Positions 6,922 through 56,007 of a DNA stretch of 64,000 nucleotides are shown piece by piece. The notes below the pieces were generated by a model, which searched no databases, was not told the origin of the DNA, and saw nothing but the letters and a program-made list of their open reading frames with translations. Position 1 is the stretch's first letter. Each line of letters starts with the position of its first letter. Source of the stretch: a virus. The translations under genes and the position numbers were made by a program. The DNA lies in IMG/VR virus record IMGVR_UViG_3300042934_000547, positions 167,976 to 231,975 of that record. One strand, 5' to 3'.

Positions 6922-6987
6922 TCGAATTCCCCCTGTTATTAAGATTATTAATTCTATCCTATATTAGATTAGAATCAATTTCATAAA

Positions 6988-6998
6988 TATAATATATA
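6988..6998 (-). promoter_or_regulatory. Early-type promoter candidate
   Basis: Reads TATATATTATA, then 3 nt, then ATGA on the minus strand, about 65 nt upstream of the 6088-6921 gene. Confidence 0.55.
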
Positions 6999-7052
6999 CT
7001 TATAAGTGTTTTTATGGAATTGAAATGATTAAGTGATTTAATTGGGTAGAAG

Positions 7053-7255
7053 AATTTTTTACCCTTCTCTTCTCCTTTCCCCCCTTAAACCCCCCTTTCC
7101 TCATCTCATCCCATTCACCCCTCTCCCTTATAATCTAGATTTAAATTATATTTATTTATTCTTTATTATTCTACCATCAATTCCATTATTCTTTATTTAT
7201 CTTTAATTTTATTTATTTTTCTTCTTTCTCTTTATTTCTTTTCTTTATTCTTCCT
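7053..7255. other. G-depleted 203-nt tract at a divergent junction
   Basis: The plus strand contains only one G (position 7138) in 203 nt and is C/T/A only otherwise, with C-rich runs in its first third and T-rich runs after. It lies between leftward (to 6921) and rightward (from 7517) genes, next to the stem-loops at 7266-7388. Such strand asymmetry beside strong hairpins suits a replication origin or unwinding element. No gene is seen in 6922-7516. Confidence 0.55.
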
Positions 7256-7265
7256 GAGCTTCATC

Positions 7266-7319
7266 CATGAACCCCAATCTCGCTTCGCTCGTTCATTGGG
7301 TTCATGTCTCTACGAGACA
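7266..7319. repeat. Paired stem-loops
   Basis: CATGAACCCCAAT (7266-7278) pairs with ATTGGGTTCATG (7295-7306), with one bulged C, around a loop containing CGCTTCGCTCG. A second hairpin, TGTCTC-TAC-GAGACA (7305-7319), overlaps its 3' end and is followed by TTTT on the plus strand. Confidence 0.6.
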
Positions 7320-7326
7320 TTTTAGA

Positions 7327-7388
7327 GTCCAAAGCCCCCTATAGAAAACACCCGGTAGTAAAAAACTACCGAATGCGGGGGCTTGGAC
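7327..7388. ncRNA. Strong two-helix stem-loop (RNA or origin element)
   Basis: GTCCAAaGCCCCC (7327-7339) pairs with GGGGGCTTGGAC (7377-7388), 12 bp with one bulged A. An inner helix CGGTAGT/ACTACCG (7353-7359/7365-7371) closes an A5 loop. Between the helices is an asymmetric internal loop of 13 and 5 nt. It is much more GC-rich than its surroundings. It does not match a riboswitch class I know; the strand is undetermined because pairing is fully Watson-Crick. Confidence 0.45.
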
Positions 7389-7478
7389 ATAGTTACAACG
7401 CTCGACAATATTAGTATCAACTTTTGTGATTATCCTATTGTTATTCGTAAATATTTTTTATAAATTTTATAGTCCTTC

Positions 7479-7490
7479 AACAATACTATA
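7479..7490 (+). promoter_or_regulatory. Late-type promoter candidate
   Basis: AACAATACTATA lies 11 nt upstream of the AGGAGG of the 7517 gene and fits AACA-N6-TA. Confidence 0.4.
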
Positions 7491-7516
7491 AATAATCCTT
7501 AGGAGGATATAAATAA

Positions 7517-11560: not shown

Positions 11561-12280
11561 ATGGATATGGATAATACATTCATGAACCCAAACCAAGTGA
11601 ATCAAAAGGAAATAAAGGATTACGAAGCAGAATTCGATACTCCAATTACATTAAGTGAGCCGATGAGATTTTATATCGAGACCACTACACGTTTAGGTAT
11701 GGAGATATTAAAGAAGTATACTCCAATTTTCGGCGACTTAATCGGTACGTTTATTACGGTTAATACCAAAGGCGATCTTGAAGTATCATTACAGTTTGAG
11801 AAAAAAGGTGCTGGCAATGTTGTAGACTTATTCAACAACAGTGACTTCAACCAAAGAATTACAGCGTTCAATACGCTTAACACAACAAACAGAATCTTCG
11901 ATTTAGATGATACTGTTAAAGGAACTTTCCAAAGATTCTTAATCAAAGCTAATCCAATGCAGAAAATTGATTGGAATCAATATATCAGACAAATAACAAT
12001 CAACAACAACACTATGAGTGGAAAGCACACAATTCTTGAATTGGCTCACATTTCACTTGATAGATTGCTGCCTGAATTAATATTTGTTGGAGAAGATGCT
12101 AAGAAAAAACGCACTACTCAGATTAAGACTATTATAACTGGTTCTGTAAATCCAGCTTCACCATTATCAAAAAATTGGTTCGTGAAGATAGATATGCTGG
12201 ATCAAGCTACTGTTGATTTCGTATCTAAAGAAGCAGGAATTGTTACAAGCACTTACGGCTTGGATATGATAACACTCTAA
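11561..12280 (+). CDS. Abundant-looking protein of unknown function, 239 aa
   Basis: A 239-residue soluble protein. Codon choice differs from most neighbours: many C-ending codons (AAC, GAC, TTC), similar to the capsid gene, which suggests high expression. It has no recognised motif. Early- and late-type promoter motifs overlap upstream, AGGAGG lies 10 nt before the ATG, and a strong terminator separates it from the ssDNA-binding protein gene. It could be a virion component or an abundant DNA-metabolism protein; nothing in the sequence decides between these. Confidence 0.72.
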   Translation: MDMDNTFMNPNQVNQKEIKDYEAEFDTPITLSEPMRFYIETTTRLGMEILKKYTPIFGDLIGTFITVNTKGDLEVSLQFEKKGAGNVVDLFNNSDFNQRITAFNTLNTTNRIFDLDDTVKGTFQRFLIKANPMQKIDWNQYIRQITINNNTMSGKHTILELAHISLDRLLPELIFVGEDAKKKRTTQIKTIITGSVNPASPLSKNWFVKIDMLDQATVDFVSKEAGIVTSTYGLDMITL

Positions 12281-12288
12281 TATAGCAG

Positions 12289-12320
12289 AGGGTATACATT
12301 ATGTATACCCTTTAATTTTT
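12289..12320 (+). terminator. Intrinsic terminator
   Basis: AGGGTATACA-TTA-TGTATACCCT forms a perfect 10-bp stem followed by TTAATTTTTC, right after the 11561-12280 stop. Confidence 0.8.
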
Positions 12321-12338
12321 CTCTATGGAGGTACACTA

Positions 12339-12668
12339 ATGGCTTTCGAAGACAAACTCGAATATGACATAGAACAAGAATTAGGTGTATTTGATGAAAA
12401 AGGAAATACATCACTTGAATTAAGAGTTGTAAGCTGGAATAAGAAGCCTGCTAAACTTGAATTAAGAAAATGGGTAACCAACAGCGATGGTCAAAATCCA
12501 AATAAAGGATTCTCATTCTTAACTGATGAAGGTCCGCATCGTCTTGCTGAACTTTTAGTTGAAAATAATTTTGGAGATACAAAAACTCTAAAAGCTCTTT
12601 TAATTGATAGGGATGATTACGATGAATCTGAATCAGATTATGACTATTTGGATGAAGAAGAAGAATAA
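12339..12668 (+). CDS. PC4/YdbC-like ssDNA-binding protein with acidic tail
   Basis: The 109-residue product has a PC4-type core (residues 22-85): LELRVVSWNKKPAKLELRKW on the beta-sheet side, then a KGFSFLTDEGPHRLAELLVE helix segment, similar to the YdbC family of Firmicutes. That fold binds single-stranded DNA as a dimer. The last 18 residues are almost all Asp, Glu, Ser and Tyr, ending DYLDEEEE, an arrangement like the acidic C-terminal tails by which single-strand binding proteins recruit partners. A role as the phage's replication or recombination SSB is inferred. GGAGG lies 7 nt before the ATG and a strong terminator follows. Confidence 0.75.
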   Translation: MAFEDKLEYDIEQELGVFDEKGNTSLELRVVSWNKKPAKLELRKWVTNSDGQNPNKGFSFLTDEGPHRLAELLVENNFGDTKTLKALLIDRDDYDESESDYDYLDEEEE

Positions 12669-12673
12669 CAATT

Positions 12674-12713
12674 AATGGTGGAACCTGTAATCGGGTTCCA
12701 TCATTTTTTTTTG
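12674..12713 (+). terminator. Intrinsic terminator
   Basis: TGGAACC and GGTTCCA pair (extended outside by ATG/CAT), followed by a T9 tract. Confidence 0.82.
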
Positions 12714-45631: not shown

Positions 45632-45643
45632 AACAATATAATA
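45632..45643 (+). promoter_or_regulatory. Late-type promoter candidate (RNAP beta)
   Basis: AACAATATAATA, identical to the sites before the capsid gene and the structured RNA, 8 nt before the AGGAGG of the RNA polymerase gene. Confidence 0.6.
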
Positions 45644-45664
45644 ATAAAAATTAGGAGGAATAAT

Positions 45665-48600: not shown

Positions 48601-49951
48601 GATTAACCGTAGTTTAACCATGAATGCTCAGATAACTGATGCTCATGGATATATCAGACCAACTGGTGTTAATGAAATGACTGCTGCTAATACATTTTGT
48701 ATAACAGAAGCATTAAATCCATTTGTTGCGACATCAGATGCTGGTGAAAGAATTGCTATGACGTATTCTCAAGGTAAGCATACCGTTAGAACACAGCGTT
48801 CATCACCATTGCTTGTTACATATGGAGCCGATGAAGCTATGCCATATATGATATCAGATACATTTGCATATAAGGCACCTTTCGATGGTAAGATAAAGGA
48901 AATAACTGATGATTACATTGCATTAGAATCCAATGATAATGAAACTCACTATGTTGCTACAGAAACAATAAGTAAAAACGTCAATACCGGTACATTCAAT
49001 GCAATTAAGTTAAAGAGTGATTTAAAAGTAGGACAGAAATTTAAAGAGGGTTCTATAATTGCACACGACCCATTATCATTTAGTGGAGAAGTCGGTCAAA
49101 CAGATAACTTAGCATATAATGTCGGATGTATGGCTAAAGTAGGTGTAGTTGCATATCCTTTTGGATTCGAAGACTCATGTAAAATTACTAAGCAATTAGC
49201 TAGAAATATGATGTCTCAAGTTACTACTAAAAAAGAAATTAATCTGGGTAAAAATGCTAACGTGTTCAATTTGATTAACAAGGGTGATGATGTTCAACAA
49301 GGTCAATCTTTAATGGTAATACAAAACTCATTCGATGATGAGGATTTAAATATTGTCTTAAAGAATATGATTACAGATGAAGACGGAGACTCAGAAGTTA
49401 TTGATGATTTAGGAAGAATTCCAGTTAAATCTAAATATACAGGTCGTATCGAAGATATTAAAATCTTTAGAACTGTTGAATTGAGCGAATTATCTCCCAC
49501 ACTAAGAAAGTTATGCGAGAAATATGAAGCTCCTACGAAAAAATTAAGGAATCAAATGAAAAAAGAAAAGAATAATCAGGTTTATTCAGATGTGGTTGAA
49601 CAACCTGACTATAAACTTGAACCAACTGGACAGTTAAAAGGTATCCCAAATGGTGAAGGTGTTCAGATAAGAATATCTATAACCTATAACGATATCATGG
49701 CATGGGGTGACAAATTAACATTTACTGTTGCTCTTAAAGGTACAGTAGGCGATACTTATGATGAAGACAAAGTTCCGTATTCATCATATAGGAAGGATGA
49801 GCACATAGATACCCTGCTTAACTCAACTTCTGTAAATAAACGTATGACTCCATCAGTATTTAAAATCGGTGGTAGTAATAAATTTGCCATCGAATTAGGT
49901 AGACAAGTTAAAGACATGCTTGGAATACCATACGATGTAAATTTCAGATAA
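45665..49951 (+). CDS. Multisubunit RNA polymerase beta-subunit-like protein
   Basis: The 1,428-residue product starts MYFTNEMKP behind AGGAGG. About 430 N-terminal residues are phage-specific and end in a Glu/Asp-rich linker. From there it follows the bacterial beta subunit: KIHLPRFINDRSIFIKGNEKKLQKQL (like the IPLM...GTFIINGTERV segment), YKAPFDGKIKEITDDYIAL, and WGDKLTFTVALKGTVG, where GDK and the Lys seven residues later align with the active-site lysines of GDKMAGRHGNKG. The following VPYSSY...RMTPSVFKIGG matches the P..LNPLGVPSRMNIGQ region. It then stops, lacking the beta C-terminal clamp segment. Such subunits form phage-encoded virion or non-virion polymerases in phiKZ/AR9-type phages, where beta is split; here it is a single chain. 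Located among virion genes, so a virion polymerase is likely. Confidence 0.85.
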   Translation: MYFTNEMKPMVLYKNKVRLPRGEKRLDKGSIVFLLTPNLDSVIRTINNPLFDTRYYEHLFIERDVSYFIGNREVVNEDGDITEISMSDKFLLEDHAILETDNQIFLSPLTEVDGEYMTVLKRMLYNDRMKTPKTIVAKYNEYNEKAEKKLKWNLTLNLYRKANLFYDISYYTETFFKNLKFEKDKALGIYLEFLQNYLNSFDMKKYGYTKKTLIIPLEDWYNVDKTFNYINAINPITLFFRYFRKDLALLQKVFTGFDMIFTIGDKYSFRINIDEFDYNKNYPTFVRYLNVTAKQDEVNNSEFDIDENNKDSREIVKTDVKEEISKNTKIKMKSVTGDDATPSAEELDNVIDIIVDEKMKETEEENNTEEVYEEIDKNPEIAKLIAYSKDEEKLSKSTAKREIRINKLRDSYQDVSINNKKISNLKPSVEAAILKPAKEVKVDALDDTWDNLTYMNFEKTYNKELKDYHFGKILEHFGTNVKYPIMVTDIKVENKSTTEDKYDEYSIETEDSFGKRATLKIHLPRFINDRSIFIKGNEKKLQKQLVLFPVAKTETNCVQIVSNYNKLFIELFGSTSNVIEDRILKTLTKLQEKGSKTVKITTGNATELNKYYVLPNDYVEMSGKIYRIEADDVTYYFDQSEIRDIILKKKPNEKFDTGIPFAINNKTNMVYVYDGNIPDITFSYMLNEHLKQNKEYSEAYDGTSIAKRYSYSRVRILSARIPLIVFLAFNEGLLTVLDKSNVQYEILDKNDRDDRDLFDYIKFSDRVIKYKITNNSSILMNGLKVCNTQEYTLAEMNQSQSYIDIIGQFGSKTLADPIESFHELELDPMTLDVIHDLKLPDKFTELLLYANDMLSDNSYEDHNIIYNNRLRSNEIINGLLYKSLCESYQEYKMGIRNGRRDNKISIKPTCVIDKLLTQNTMLDASKSTALLEMEESETASKKGFGGMNLEKGYKLNKRQYDESMLNVLSISSVAGPTIGINRSLTMNAQITDAHGYIRPTGVNEMTAANTFCITEALNPFVATSDAGERIAMTYSQGKHTVRTQRSSPLLVTYGADEAMPYMISDTFAYKAPFDGKIKEITDDYIALESNDNETHYVATETISKNVNTGTFNAIKLKSDLKVGQKFKEGSIIAHDPLSFSGEVGQTDNLAYNVGCMAKVGVVAYPFGFEDSCKITKQLARNMMSQVTTKKEINLGKNANVFNLINKGDDVQQGQSLMVIQNSFDDEDLNIVLKNMITDEDGDSEVIDDLGRIPVKSKYTGRIEDIKIFRTVELSELSPTLRKLCEKYEAPTKKLRNQMKKEKNNQVYSDVVEQPDYKLEPTGQLKGIPNGEGVQIRISITYNDIMAWGDKLTFTVALKGTVGDTYDEDKVPYSSYRKDEHIDTLLNSTSVNKRMTPSVFKIGGSNKFAIELGRQVKDMLGIPYDVNFR

Positions 49952-49968
49952 ATTAAACAAAGCTTATA

Positions 49969-50000
49969 TAGAGTAGGATTCAAATCCTACTCTAATTTTT
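49969..50000 (+). terminator. Intrinsic terminator after RNAP beta
   Basis: GAGTAGGAT and ATCCTACTC pair over 9 bp (49971-49992), followed by TAATTTTTATTT. Confidence 0.78.
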
Positions 50001-50015
50001 ATTTAAATTTCCTAT

Positions 50016-50027
50016 AACAATATAATA
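50016..50027 (+). promoter_or_regulatory. Late-type promoter candidate before structured RNA
   Basis: AACAATATAATA, exact match to the sites upstream of RNAP beta and capsid. It also forms an 8-bp inverted repeat with ATATTGTT at 50029-50036. No protein gene follows for 500 nt, so its product would be the RNA at 50050-50325. Confidence 0.55.
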
Positions 50028-50049
50028 GATATTGTTTGATTATAAATGC

Positions 50050-50325
50050 TTAAACCGGTTAGCTTTTAATCGATAAGACAGTATCCATATAGTATTTAGA
50101 TATGCCGGCAGCCCCTTATAATGGACCATTAGTAAACTAAAATGATCATTGATGGTATTGTGGGCTTATGCTGGCAAAATCTTACTTCCAATTATGCACT
50201 TCGAGTTAAAGTAGCATGGTAATATAGTGTCCCCCGGGTAAGTCGTCCCCTACCCTTCTTGATACCGTGCTACTAAGTGTATAATGTAACATTTGGATAA
50301 TATTTAGGATTTGGTTACCGTTTAA
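50050..50325 (+). ncRNA. Multibranched structured RNA candidate (about 276 nt)
   Basis: A closing helix TTAAAC(c)GGT (50050-50059) pairs with ACCGTTTAA (50317-50325). Arm 1: GCCGGCA/TGCTGGC (50104-50110/50169-50175) continued by GCCC/GGGC (50111-50114/50162-50165). Arm 2: ATTATGCACTT/AAGTGTATAAT (50191-50201/50275-50285) stacked on AGTAGCATGGTA/TACCGTGCTACT (50210-50221/50263-50274), with GGGTA/TACCC (50236-50240/50251-50255) inside. Every non-Watson-Crick position in arms 1 and 2 is a G.U pair if read from the plus strand but A.C if read from the minus strand. Hallmark motifs of RNase P RNA, tmRNA, SRP RNA or group I introns were not seen. It is preceded by a late promoter and followed by hairpins. 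No coding frame is supported in 49952-50530. Confidence 0.6.
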
Positions 50326-50369
50326 CCCATTCTAAATTTTATTATATATTTTTTCTTCTTTTACTACAC

Positions 50370-50400
50370 CTCATTTTGTTAGGTGCATTGGTTTTCTCCT
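50370..50400 (+). terminator. Possible terminator of the structured RNA
   Basis: CACCT and AGGTG pair around an 8-nt T-rich loop, followed by a T/C-rich stretch (GGTTTTCTCCTTTC). Weak stem. Confidence 0.3.
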
Positions 50401-50429
50401 TTCTCTATTTGTATGACAAGCACTTAAAA

Positions 50430-50461
50430 TAGCGTAATAAGAATAGCTACTTATTACGCTA
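50430..50461. repeat. Perfect 12-bp inverted repeat
   Basis: TAGCGTAATAAG (50430-50441) and CTTATTACGCTA (50450-50461) pair perfectly around an 8-nt loop, with no U tract close by. It lies between the structured RNA and the terminator of the convergent operon. Confidence 0.65.
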
Positions 50462-50487
50462 TATTGGGTGTGAGTATTAATAATTTG

Positions 50488-50536
50488 AAAAAAAAATAAT
50501 GAGGTAGGATTAATTTCCTACCTCTTCTTTTTATTC
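50488..50536. terminator. Bidirectional terminator
   Basis: GAGGTAGGA and TCCTACCTC (50501-50524) form a 9-bp stem with an A-rich run to the left and TTCTTTTTATT to the right. Confidence 0.82.
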
Positions 50537-50896
50537 TTTAATTTCGTACGTCACCATAATCTGCGTAAACGTTAATTTTCCTGATGATGGTATAAGTCTA
50601 TTTGAATCAGATTTAATCCCAATCATTTCATCTATATCACGTAAAAATTCAAATATATTTTGAATGTCTTTAATAATATCAATGTAAATGATTACTGATT
50701 TACCACGAATTACAGCCATAGATATTCTATAAGACGGTAATATAAATGGTTTAATGCGTATATCTTCATTGTCGAATTTGAATACTATATCATCTCGATG
50801 TGGAAATACTTCTCCATATGAAATAATCTTTTTAACATCTTTTGTCTCAACTAAATGGAGTTGTTTAAATTTTTCTAGATAGTAGTTCTTATTCAT
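50531..50896 (-). CDS. Hypothetical protein, 121 aa
   Basis: A 121-residue mixed alpha/beta product starting MNKNYYLEKF, with the start overlapping the end of the preceding gene by 8 nt. An upstream ATG four codons earlier is possible. Its N-terminus (MNK-x-x-YL) and overall style resemble the 244-residue protein before it, so the two may be distant duplicates. The segment SVIIYIDIIKDIQNIFEFLRDIDEMIG is the most hydrophobic part. No family recognised. Last gene of the DHH operon. Confidence 0.58.
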   Translation of the reverse strand: MNKNYYLEKFKQLHLVETKDVKKIISYGEVFPHRDDIVFKFDNEDIRIKPFILPSYRISMAVIRGKSVIIYIDIIKDIQNIFEFLRDIDEMIGIKSDSNRLIPSSGKLTFTQIMVTYEIKE

Positions 50897-51623
50897 TGTC
50901 ATCTTCATCCCATTTTAATTGATATTTGATGGTTATGTACATTCCATCATCCTTACCACCCATTTCAATATCAGGTTCACTTAATGGTAACACACCACGT
51001 ATCAAATTTATCATTCCATTAATACTATCCATTGGGCACATGAAATCACCCCATACTCTAAGTGATATATTTAAGGACTCTTCTTGAGTACAATCTACAT
51101 GTATATCAACTGAATTTTGTTCATTAAGCATTTTTTCGATTTCGAGAAATGCTTCGAATTCATTTATTTGATGGAATTTATATTTCATTTTATGGTGTGT
51201 AAATATAGTTTCTATTTTTGGAATTACATTCTTTCTAATAACACTGATTTTTGTATCCAAATCATAGTAATATTTGAATATAATCTTGATTGCTGCAAAC
51301 GCATATTCATCTTCATCCTTTGGATACACAGAGATTTCACCACATGGTGGTAAACCTAACTTTTTCCTGATTTGCTCATTAAATAATGCAAAATTGTCAA
51401 ATCCATCTACGGTATCAATGATGATGTGAAGTATATTATTATCAAATATCATCACCTGAAGATTTTTCAGGTCAGGTTCATGAATCCTGTCAACCAAGTT
51501 ATCGGTACGATAATATTCATAATCACTTTTAATTTCACCTATAAATCTTTGAGTACTTTCTTTTATTAAATCAAACTTACCTAACTTGGTTTGTAATATT
51601 TTTAAATATTCGTCTTTATTCAT
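50889..51623 (-). CDS. Hypothetical protein, 244 aa
   Basis: A 244-residue acidic, mixed alpha/beta protein starting MNKDEYLKILQ. Segments IIIDTVDGFDNFALFNEQIRKKLGLP and VDIHVDCTQEESLNISLRVWGDF alternate strands and helices. No catalytic motif visible. GGAG lies 8 nt before the ATG; it overlaps both neighbours slightly. Belongs to the early-type operon headed by the DHH phosphoesterase. Confidence 0.6.
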   Translation of the reverse strand: MNKDEYLKILQTKLGKFDLIKESTQRFIGEIKSDYEYYRTDNLVDRIHEPDLKNLQVMIFDNNILHIIIDTVDGFDNFALFNEQIRKKLGLPPCGEISVYPKDEDEYAFAAIKIIFKYYYDLDTKISVIRKNVIPKIETIFTHHKMKYKFHQINEFEAFLEIEKMLNEQNSVDIHVDCTQEESLNISLRVWGDFMCPMDSINGMINLIRGVLPLSEPDIEMGGKDDGMYITIKYQLKWDEDDNE

Positions 51624-52143
51624 TTTCGTTCTCCTTCAATTCATCATATATTTGTTGAGAAGCTATAGTTCCTCGTGATTGTTGTTTATTTATTGGTAAT
51701 GATTTAGCCCACTCTAATAACTCGATGTGAAGTTTAAATAAAATATCAGAATCAATTGGAATCCTGTTACGTGTCTTACTATCTTTGACACGTAATACTT
51801 TTTGAATTTTATTTGTATCTTCTATTACTCGACCTTTATGAATGGTTGTATAATATTTATCCTCCACCTCGAAATTATCTGGAATGTGTGGTAATACAAT
51901 ACCTACATCAAACAGAATATACATACGATTGGCTTCATCACGAGTCCCATAGTGACCAGCACAACAGAATACTGTGCGATAGTTCTTTTTATTTAATTCA
52001 ATGATTGTTGGTATAATCATCTCATCAATCTCTCCAAAGTATGTACCACTATGGCATTCAGTTCTAGGACAACTTCTAACCCCTTCTCTTAAAGTAGAAC
52101 CATCGTAAATATTGAAACATCTTAGACATACATATTTACTCAT
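51616..52143 (-). CDS. Zinc-ribbon protein with NxxxYxTxFCCxGH motif
   Basis: The 175-residue product begins with a Cys4-type ribbon, CLRCFNIYDG then CPRTECH (residues 6-30). It continues with IIPTIIELNKKNYRTVFCCAGHYG (about 43-66), a motif I associate with small proteins of Firmicutes and their phages that have the pattern 'I..LN..GY.T..CC.GH'. The likely fold binds zinc; its biochemical role is not known to me. Ends highly charged. GAGGT lies 8 nt before the ATG. Part of the operon with the DHH enzyme, which may indicate a nucleic-acid or nucleotide function. Confidence 0.65.
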   Translation of the reverse strand: MSKYVCLRCFNIYDGSTLREGVRSCPRTECHSGTYFGEIDEMIIPTIIELNKKNYRTVFCCAGHYGTRDEANRMYILFDVGIVLPHIPDNFEVEDKYYTTIHKGRVIEDTNKIQKVLRVKDSKTRNRIPIDSDILFKLHIELLEWAKSLPINKQQSRGTIASQQIYDELKENENE

Positions 52144-53215
52144 TTTTATTTACCTCTTTTATATAATTTGACAACGATTTAACAAATTCAATTTCCATAT
52201 TTGAACTCGTAAATCCAGCGGCATTTTTATGCCCTCCACCACCATGCTTCATACATATTTCAACTACACTAACTTCCTTAGAATATAGTGTATATTTATA
52301 TTTCTCGCCATTAAACGTAAAAAGTATACAAAAATCGAATTTATCGATAAGTTCTTCGAAAGCAAATGAATTACCTAATCCTTCATTTAGACATAAGCAA
52401 GTGTGTCCATCTAATTTACCGATGAATCCGTATTCATTTAATTTTGATATATATTCTTTCTCTTTTGGAAGTGAATCTATTCTACCGTCATCAATTACAT
52501 CATTAATATCTATACAGGTATGCTCTGGATTTAATATATTTAAATTCAATGCATTAGATAAAATATCATCATTTAACCATTCATTCCATAATTTATATCC
52601 ACTCTCTTCAGTTAATAATTCTCTATTTAAACCAAAAGTCCCTCTATTAAAATATCTAGCCACTTTATTAGGAAGTAGATGTTTCCATGTGTCGTAATCA
52701 TCGACTAACTTTAAAATGTATGGTATATGATAATCATCATATTGCTCGATGATATTAGTCGTTCCATCAACCTGCAATTTAGATTGTACTTTGTTACAAG
52801 GACTTATGAATAATCCTATATATGCTAAATAAGCACCACATGCAGATTTATTTATCATACCAAATAATCGATTTTCATTTTCATCAATAAATGTTGGATT
52901 TCCTTTTATAAAATCGAATGATGAGTCATGATGGTCAAACCATATTACTTCAACTGAATGGTCAAATAAGAATTTAAATATCCCTAATGCTTCCTCTAAA
53001 TTGAAAGAATAATCCACGATGTAAATTCTATCATATTTACAATTTCGTGTACATACAACTCTTTTTATTTCCTCTAAATCATTCTTTACGTGATTTAGTG
53101 TGATTGTATCAATCTCAGCTGGTTTATTAAGATTAGCATGTAAATCACATAAAGCACCTCCTAACATTCCGTCATTATCATGATGCCTTATTACTAAAAA
53201 TTTCTTAGTTTCCAT
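52136..53215 (-). CDS. DHH-family phosphoesterase (NrnA/RecJ-like)
   Basis: The 359-residue product (start METKKFLVIR, AAAGGA 8 nt upstream of the second ATG) has the DHH motifs: HHDNDG (residues 11-16), YIVDYS (65-70), WFDHHDSS (92-99), and the DHHA1 signature GGGGHKNAAGF near 330. Metal-bound Asp and His residues hydrolyse phosphodiester bonds. NrnA-like members degrade short oligonucleotides or cyclic-dinucleotide-derived pApA, and RecJ-like members chew single-stranded DNA. The size (about 360) fits the NrnA/oligoribonuclease class better. In a phage it may recycle nucleotides or remove signalling molecules. First gene of an early-type operon (promoter 53320). Confidence 0.85.
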   Translation of the reverse strand: METKKFLVIRHHDNDGMLGGALCDLHANLNKPAEIDTITLNHVKNDLEEIKRVVCTRNCKYDRIYIVDYSFNLEEALGIFKFLFDHSVEVIWFDHHDSSFDFIKGNPTFIDENENRLFGMINKSACGAYLAYIGLFISPCNKVQSKLQVDGTTNIIEQYDDYHIPYILKLVDDYDTWKHLLPNKVARYFNRGTFGLNRELLTEESGYKLWNEWLNDDILSNALNLNILNPEHTCIDINDVIDDGRIDSLPKEKEYISKLNEYGFIGKLDGHTCLCLNEGLGNSFAFEELIDKFDFCILFTFNGEKYKYTLYSKEVSVVEICMKHGGGGHKNAAGFTSSNMEIEFVKSLSNYIKEVNKNE

Positions 53216-53319
53216 AATCATTTCCTTTCTTCTCCACGACTATAATAAGTCAATAAGTATTTTGTGGTTATCATTTCTTAATTGAAATAATTATTTAGAT
53301 TTATTTTACCTATCAAATA

Positions 53320-53330
53320 TATAATATATA
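53320..53330 (-). promoter_or_regulatory. Early-type promoter candidate (DHH operon)
   Basis: Reads TATATATTATA, then 3 nt, then TTGA on the minus strand, about 105 nt upstream of the DHH gene start. Confidence 0.55.
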
Positions 53331-53375
53331 TCTGAAATTATTAACAATTACATCTAATTAAGGAGGTGATTCGTG

Positions 53376-54201: not shown

Positions 54202-54213
54202 AACAATATAATA
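54202..54213 (+). promoter_or_regulatory. Late-type promoter candidate (capsid)
   Basis: AACAATATAATA, identical to the sites at 45632 and 50016, about 20 nt before the GGAGGT of the capsid gene. Confidence 0.62.
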
Positions 54214-54246: not shown

Positions 54247-56007
54247 ATGCAATATGGTACTAGACAAAGAGTGAATAATGATATAGCTGGTATGAGCTAT
54301 AAAAAAGATAAGCTTTATAAATATGCTGAGCAAACTAATGAGTTGAGAACAGCAATTAAGGAAGAAACTGGGTTAGATATATTTACTACTCCGGGAGGTA
54401 TATCAAATGATAGATATGCCGTTGCGAGAAACCAGTTAAAGGATTTCTTCGTACAAGAATCATACGATCCTGATTTGGTAACTACATTGGACGAACAATC
54501 AGCAGTTATGGATGACATGGGTGCTTTGTTCGAAAACATGATGGATGCTATGGAAACAACTGTAGGTTCTCCTATTCAGACTAACCTTAACGAGTCTGTT
54601 GCGTTGAACACTTTGAATCCAATCATCGCTATGTCTCCAATGATATACAAAGATATATTGATTAACAATATATTCCAAAGTGCTATCGATACTGCTGTTG
54701 CTGTAAGTCCTATCGTACCAATAAGACATGAGCACAGATATTTAGTTTCGGTTGACGGAACTAAGAAGATTGATATTTCTAAGCAGCAACACATGATAAA
54801 ATCATTTATGGATGAAACTGCTCCATTTAAAGAAATAGTAATCACTCTTCCAGAAAACGGTTCAGTTGACATAATTGCTGCATTAAACGGCAATAATTCT
54901 GATTCATTATCAACAGCTTCTTATATTTCTAAGATTGTTATTGATAAAACTGCTGCACCTGTTGAACCTGCAACTGAAATTGAAACAGTAGAAAGACTCT
55001 GTGATTTCAGATTATTACCACAAGGTTTCAATACTACATCTGCTCAAAGATATTTGATCCAAGATGTATTGTTACCTTACTTAGATGCTCAAGGTAATCC
55101 AGTGGCAGACACAATGACTGTTACTATGAACAATAACAAATTAACAGCTATGTCTTCAATGGGTAAAATAAGATCTATAACTTTCAAAGCAAGACTTGAT
55201 ACTTCAACAGCAATGTTAAAGACTTGTACAACTGCTTGGGAGCATGAAAATACACAAATCGGAATCGATGATGGTATGCCTCTTGCTACTACTGTTAACC
55301 CAAGTGAATTGAAAGATATTGCAGCTTTATTCAATATTGATCAGTTGACTAAAGTTATGAGTATATTCAGAGACACAATGGCTAACTACAAAGACAGCCA
55401 CATTTATGAATACCTAGTTGATTCTTATAATAGAATGCCTGATGATTTCGGTGGAAAATTCTCTGGTAAATTCGACTTTGCTGATATAGCAGGATATCAT
55501 GTACAGAATCCAGAATCTTGGAGACATGAAGCATTTATGCCTATATTGGACTCTTATATTTCAGATGCTTTACAACATTTAAGAGACCCTAATATATCAG
55601 TAACAATATTAGGTAGACCTGACCTTATCAGAAAGATCGAGCCTTCTAAATACGAATATCAGTCTCCAAAGAATATCGGTGCTATTCCTCTTGAATTCAA
55701 CAGAACTGTTACTACTAACCACGGCAGACAGTACAACTTCAACAGCTCAATGAAGATTAACTATGATACAGCAAACAGAAACAAATTCAGAGTTGTATTT
55801 AATCCTACATCATCTGAACGTTTCATCTACAGACTGTACAACTACCAGTTAGTAATTTCTAATGAAATCAAAGCTCAGGAGAACTTAGCATTGCCATCAG
55901 TATATGCATTCGAAAGATTCAAAGTTACTGAATGGCAACCAGTTCAAGGTGAAATTCTTGCAGTTAATCCTTCAGGATTCACTAAACCTGAATACGCTAA
56001 CCTGTAA
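54247..56007 (+). CDS. Major capsid protein (candidate)
   Basis: A 586-residue protein with the strongest high-expression signs in the window: C-ending codons, its own late promoter, AGGAGGT 7 nt before the ATG, and its own terminator. Residues 1-116 are charged and helical and end in TNLNE|S (Glu116|Ser117), the arrangement expected of an HK97-type delta domain removed by a prohead protease. The mature part is a mixed alpha/beta body ending FNSSMKINYD..RFRVVFNPTSSERFIYRLYNYQLVISNEI, which resembles the last strand and P-domain part of large-phage capsid proteins. Preceded by an acidic scaffold candidate and followed by an HExxH protein. No direct family match is claimed. Confidence 0.68.
   Translation: MQYGTRQRVNNDIAGMSYKKDKLYKYAEQTNELRTAIKEETGLDIFTTPGGISNDRYAVARNQLKDFFVQESYDPDLVTTLDEQSAVMDDMGALFENMMDAMETTVGSPIQTNLNESVALNTLNPIIAMSPMIYKDILINNIFQSAIDTAVAVSPIVPIRHEHRYLVSVDGTKKIDISKQQHMIKSFMDETAPFKEIVITLPENGSVDIIAALNGNNSDSLSTASYISKIVIDKTAAPVEPATEIETVERLCDFRLLPQGFNTTSAQRYLIQDVLLPYLDAQGNPVADTMTVTMNNNKLTAMSSMGKIRSITFKARLDTSTAMLKTCTTAWEHENTQIGIDDGMPLATTVNPSELKDIAALFNIDQLTKVMSIFRDTMANYKDSHIYEYLVDSYNRMPDDFGGKFSGKFDFADIAGYHVQNPESWRHEAFMPILDSYISDALQHLRDPNISVTILGRPDLIRKIEPSKYEYQSPKNIGAIPLEFNRTVTTNHGRQYNFNSSMKINYDTANRNKFRVVFNPTSSERFIYRLYNYQLVISNEIKAQENLALPSVYAFERFKVTEWQPVQGEILAVNPSGFTKPEYANL

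Follow-up and report, generated by a model that had tools for sequence, protein, structure and literature searches.

The window analysed here, 64,000 nucleotides in length, covers the final 64 kb of a 231,975-base (232-kb) IMG/VR jumbo phage record. It carries on the plus strand a gene for the beta subunit of a multisubunit RNA polymerase (RNAP) of the jumbo-phage type (45662–49951, 1,429 residues). A group of four genes on the minus strand (50531–53221), encoding proteins of 125, 244 and 175 aa and a DHH-type phosphoesterase, converges on it and would be antisense to any readthrough. The major capsid gene lies beyond, on the plus strand, at 54247–56007. A gap of 579 nt (49952–50530) separates the RNAP gene, which ends at 49951, from the next gene (50531, minus strand).

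The best matches of the RNAP beta protein among named phages were Listeria phage LPJP1, Yersinia phage phiR1-37, the Staphylococcus PALS_2 group and PBS1, with about 30% identity. About 30 records in IMG/VR were closer than the named phages, the best of them with about 38% identity. A search for close relatives with one RNAP segment found none, and the gene order 3' of RNAP beta was not conserved in the nearest relatives. The phage is a very divergent giant phage and a distant relative of PBS1/AR9, phiR1-37 and LPJP1. The phiR1-37 homologue of RNAP beta, g099, carries the annotation of a structural protein of the phage, and the window gene has a promoter of the late class. The window enzyme is thus probably the virion polymerase; the choice between virion and non-virion enzyme leans on promoter class and the phiR1-37 annotation, because the protein had no sequence-level match in the PDB. 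In one relative (L028), the contig with RNAP beta is 258 kb long and was binned in a Lachnospiraceae metagenome assembly, which is a hint to the hosts of the phage clade. Four other relatives (L032, L034, L044 and L013) have gaps of 1.1–2.8 kb 3' of RNAP beta that are ORF-free in the standard code; stop-codon reassignment is possible in these phages.

The first-pass annotation described the gap as gene-free, and the ORF analysis agreed. The longest ORF lying within the gap on any strand had 29 aa, and no ORF of at least 50 aa appeared inside it when TAG was read as Gln or TGA as Trp (table 4). A hidden gene was ruled out under the three genetic codes, and a decayed gene was also rejected. The listed 75-aa minus-strand ORF sits mostly inside the RNAP gene. 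A terminator scan of the gap gave three terminator-like sites, compared with 0.2 in shuffled sequences. The elements are arranged in the order of a transcription unit: an intrinsic terminator of the RNAP gene on the plus strand (49969–49994, an 11-bp stem followed by ATTTTTATTT), a promoter (50016–50027), a structured stretch, and an intrinsic terminator acting on both strands between this unit and the convergent genes (50501–50524). The terminators thus separate the RNAP gene from the promoter, and the unit from the convergent genes. The predicted non-coding transcript runs from 50027 to 50534 on the plus strand, with its 3' end placed by the terminator; alternatively, the transcript might stop near 50355, past the U-rich tail of hairpin D. 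The transcription unit is likely to be real.

In phage AR9, the late promoter consensus is AACA-(6N)-TA/G, the last base of which is the start, and the early promoter consensus is AAATATATATTAT-(6N)-G (PMC5312081). The sequence AACA-ATATAA-TA at 50016–50027 (plus strand) agrees with the AR9-type late consensus of the non-virion RNA polymerase (nvRNAP), with a predicted start at A50027. The exact late promoter copy reported by the first-pass annotation was confirmed. The 12-mer AACAATATAATA occurs exactly three times in the window, where 0.11 copies are expected: one precedes RNAP beta (45632–45643, plus strand, 19 nt 5' of the ATG at 45662), one is at 50016, and one precedes the major capsid gene (54202–54213). 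The genome has one more copy, outside the window, in front of a 784-aa ribonucleotide-reductase-like gene. The motif AACA-N6-T[AG] was found upstream of 35 of the 170 genes of this genome (20.6%) and in 3.1% of random control stretches, a 6.6-fold enrichment. In eight related genomes, it preceded 20–37% of genes, compared with 2–5% of controls. The genome has 24 copies of the early promoter core, most of them on the same strand. Only in this genome is the exact early 13-mer common; the eight relatives almost lack it. This comparison suggests that the early promoter diverged faster than the late one across the clade.

The main rival to a stand-alone RNA unit is a unit for late antisense transcription or polymerase collision. 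RNA polymerase would run from the promoter at 50016 against 50531–53221 and help to switch these genes off late in infection, and the structured stretch would be a passive leader. The convergent orientation fits this explanation, as does the early promoter motif of AR9 type, ATATATATTAT-6N-G, that precedes the convergent group (53314–53331, minus strand; genome position 221306). It also has a precedent in AR9, in which seven late promoters drive antisense transcription and most antisense RNAs were detected at the end of infection (PMC5312081). However, the strong bidirectional terminator at 50501–50524 stands before the convergent genes, and one of these genes also has a late-type motif (genome 219598). 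A strand-specific fold whose only irregular pairs are G·U would moreover be left unexplained. The antisense explanation is considered unlikely.

The folding of a 324-nt stretch of the unit was computed on both strands. The plus strand gave −89.2 kcal/mol (z −4.0 versus dinucleotide shuffles) and the minus strand −67.7 kcal/mol (z −1.7); z of the plus-strand fold of the unit ranged from −4.0 to −4.8. The minimum-energy structure of the stretch is predicted to consist of four plus-strand hairpins, A–D. Hairpin A (50028–50085) has a 10-bp outer helix and the palindrome AACCGGUU in its apical loop. Hairpin B (50103–50176) has helices of 8, 4, 5 and 9 bp. Hairpin C (50191–50285) has helices of 11 and 12 bp, with an 8-nt bulge on one side, CGAGUUAA, and a loop rich in GC, GUCCCCCGGGUAAGUCGUCCCCUACCC. 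Hairpin D (50296–50343), with helices of 5, 9 and 5 bp, is followed by a U-rich stretch and could be a first terminator. Further 3', hairpin E (50421–50470, plus strand) is a long inverted repeat around AGCGTAATAAG/CTTATTACGCT that has no U tail. Hairpins B and C are the two long arms claimed by the first-pass annotation, and their pair probabilities were mostly 0.9–1.0. The GC content of the arm region is 41%, compared with 31% for the window. The earlier claim that the exceptions to Watson–Crick pairing are G·U only on the plus strand also held: in the ten main helices, all ten non-Watson–Crick pairs are G·U on the plus strand and A·C on the minus strand. This count leans to the plus strand because the helices were found on that strand; the energy difference between the strands favours the plus strand as well.

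The first-pass annotation had further proposed a nested structure closed by a 9-bp long-range stem. The complementarity is present: TTAAAC-C-GGT at 50050–50059 (plus strand) can pair with ACCGTTTAA at 50317–50325, giving 9 bp with one bulged C. The stem is absent from the minimum-energy fold, where it competes with hairpins A and D, and forcing it raised the energy from −89.2 to −81.0 kcal/mol, a cost of 8.2 kcal/mol. Among shuffled segment pairs, 6% gave an equally good duplex. The nested structure with a closing stem was therefore not supported, four separate hairpins fitting better, and the stem may serve as an alternative long-range or loop–loop contact. Two loops carry palindromes, AACCGGUU in hairpin A and AUGAUCAU in hairpin B, the latter overlapping the stem by two bases. 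In the predicted fold, these loops would permit dimers; 8-mer loop palindromes are only mildly unusual (p 0.03).

The strength of the fold has to be weighed against the background of this genome. Among 114 random 324-nt windows, eight reached z ≤ −4 and one reached the same energy. The fold alone is therefore unusual but not extreme, and folds of equal or greater strength were seen in several other gaps of this genome. These figures, together with the lack of detectable conservation in related records, fit a spacer with chance structure, in which the gap would be unselected or would hold only terminators and a cryptic promoter. Such a spacer would not account for an exact promoter 12-mer of so low an expected count placed between two terminators, nor for the raised GC and two arms of 23–26 bp with only G·U exceptions. 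Long unused gaps are also uncommon, since only six gaps of at least 250 nt occur in the 64-kb window. Chance structure is a minor possibility, and the fold of the RNA unit is plausibly functional.

Homologues of the unit were searched for at several levels. No family in Rfam gave a gathering-level match anywhere in the window. Blastn against annotated phages gave only short chance matches. In 43 related records, neither blastn nor a covariance model detected a homologue. The best blastn matches in the related records (18–23 nt) were attributed to chance, since their context was coding or gene-start sequence. The covariance model found no match in the fetched loci and 1.53 Mb from eight relative genomes, and an nhmmer search was also empty. 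Four scans of IMG/VR with loop and helix patterns gave 0, 1, 11 and 1 matches, with no homologue among them; none was scored by the covariance model, and those inspected were mostly GC-rich or coding. Matches of 12–13 nt, including GGTTAGCTTTTAA in L012, were at chance level because of the number of comparisons. The gaps at the same place in L008, L012, L017, L007 and L010 had no sequence relation to this one. L012 has a 732-nt gene-free, strongly hairpinned stretch two genes 3' of RNAP beta (11948–12679), which folds with about −250 kcal/mol over 750 nt.

The covariance model was built from a single sequence and in its own genome finds only itself. Its empty results are weak, because a one-sequence model is blind to distant relatives. 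The absence of a homologue is likewise weak evidence, because the closest relatives are only about 38% identical in RNAP beta. The first-pass reading as a structured late non-coding RNA is partly supported, by the layout and the strand-specific folding; the covariance searches of related phages and Rfam gave no homologous structure with compensatory changes.

Known RNA classes and partners were then considered. ARAGORN and Rfam found no tmRNA, and the whole window contains no tRNA gene. No Rfam covariance model of RNase P, SRP, 6S RNA, group I or II introns or phi29 pRNA matched; the first-pass annotation had likewise seen no hallmarks of RNase P, tmRNA, SRP or group I intron. The reverse transcriptase of retrons and DGRs (PF00078) and the TnpB-like nuclease (PF07282) that would accompany an omega-type guide RNA of TnpB/Cas12f were absent from the phage's own genome, with positive controls in both searches. 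The unit is a candidate phage structured non-coding RNA and is a member of no named family.

Mobile introns and homing elements often interrupt or flank the RNAP genes of jumbo phages, and the unit could be what is left of one. In PBS1, genes for HNH and homing endonucleases lie within and just 3' of RNAP beta, and Staphylococcus phage Machias also carries such a gene. However, 49952–50560 matched no intron, ROOL, GOLLD or OLE family in Rfam even at E ≤ 10, and no endonuclease fragment was found in any frame in comparison with the relatives. The unit also has its own promoter and terminators. An intron remnant is extremely improbable.

Another possibility considered was a small RNA whose loops or pyrimidine-rich 3' part would base-pair with mRNAs of the host or the phage. 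The GC-rich open loop of hairpin C and the pyrimidine-rich tail would suit such a role. Within the 3' part, CUCCUUUCU at 50395–50403 resembles the 3' end of B. subtilis 16S rRNA and could mask ribosome-binding sites. Against this, exact complementarity of 50027–50345, the part searched, to the phage's own genome was at chance level, with 11 antisense 13-mers compared with 8.5 expected. The chance-level antisense matches speak for a structural rather than a base-pairing role, and regulation by base pairing is very unlikely.

The preferred explanation, to which about an even chance is given, is that 50016–50534 is a stand-alone late unit encoding a non-coding RNA of a PBS1/AR9-type jumbo phage that acts through its fold. 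The non-virion RNA polymerase of the phage would start at A50027. The product would be a non-coding RNA of about 320–505 nt, ending at hairpin D or at the two-way terminator 50501–50524, and it would fold into at least four stable hairpins. It could be a scaffold to which a protein of the phage or the host, or a second copy of the RNA, binds. Its timing would be that of late infection and virion assembly, when the capsid and RNAP subunits are made. A role through the fold is the most economical guess because complementarity is at chance level, no RT or TnpB-like partner was found, and there is no sign of an intron.

A bolder version, which is quite doubtful, is that the unit represents a new class of jumbo-phage RNA with the promoter of capsid and polymerase, which self-assembles through loops AACCGGUU and AUGAUCAU or joins the virion or the polymerase. 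This class and a structured unit with an early promoter at 72.6–73.3 kb would then belong to an RNA programme of the lineage. The latter is a second gene-free unit of the same genome, outside the window (73273–72654, minus strand). It has an exact AR9-type early promoter, a terminator and about 600 nt without a long ORF, and its fold (−174.5 kcal/mol, z −7.7) is stronger than that of the 50016–50534 unit. Rfam gave no match for it, and 30 related records yielded no homologue. A 595-nt divergent gap of the window (6922–7516) holds GC-rich hairpins, CCAAGCCCCCGC...GGGGGCTTTGG and GAACCCA...TGGGGTTC, adjoining a long purine-rich tract on the minus strand, and is possibly a replication or regulatory site.

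Few free-standing structured RNAs of jumbo phages are known, and the literature searched yielded none to which a function has been assigned. A late RNA with a promoter common to capsid and RNAP genes would give a concrete candidate that can be tested. If packaged or bound to the polymerase, it would bear on how the virion polymerase stays silent until the next infection. Even a passive unit would show a clean AR9-style promoter code in a lineage without a close relative.

GOLLD rises during phage lysis, and both ROOL and GOLLD assemble via kissing loops (PMC12286853). The candidate RNA resembles them as a phage-encoded, free-standing, gene-free and structured unit, here predicted from sequence. 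It is smaller (about 320–505 nt, whereas a ROOL measures 659 nt and many GOLLD RNAs exceed 800 nt). ROOL and GOLLD often lie near tRNA islands and have multi-pseudoknot folds that Rfam recognises as families, whereas the present unit has no tRNA in its window and simple hairpins with no Rfam match. With 6S RNA it shares a long hairpin with an asymmetric open region, and its neighbour gene encodes an RNAP subunit; 6S RNA is one long hairpin whereas four are predicted here, and the Rfam 6S family was unmatched. The phi29 pRNA is a phage RNA of late infection and assembly that works by its fold and by loop–loop contacts. The 8-nt palindrome in loop A recalls these contacts. The candidate RNA is longer and did not match the Rfam pRNA family; a role at the packaging motor, where pRNA acts, is not indicated. 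The late and antisense transcripts of AR9 have the late promoter consensus AACA-(6N)-TA/G in common with the unit (PMC5312081). Unlike the AR9 antisense transcripts, the unit described here is closed by a terminator before the opposing genes.
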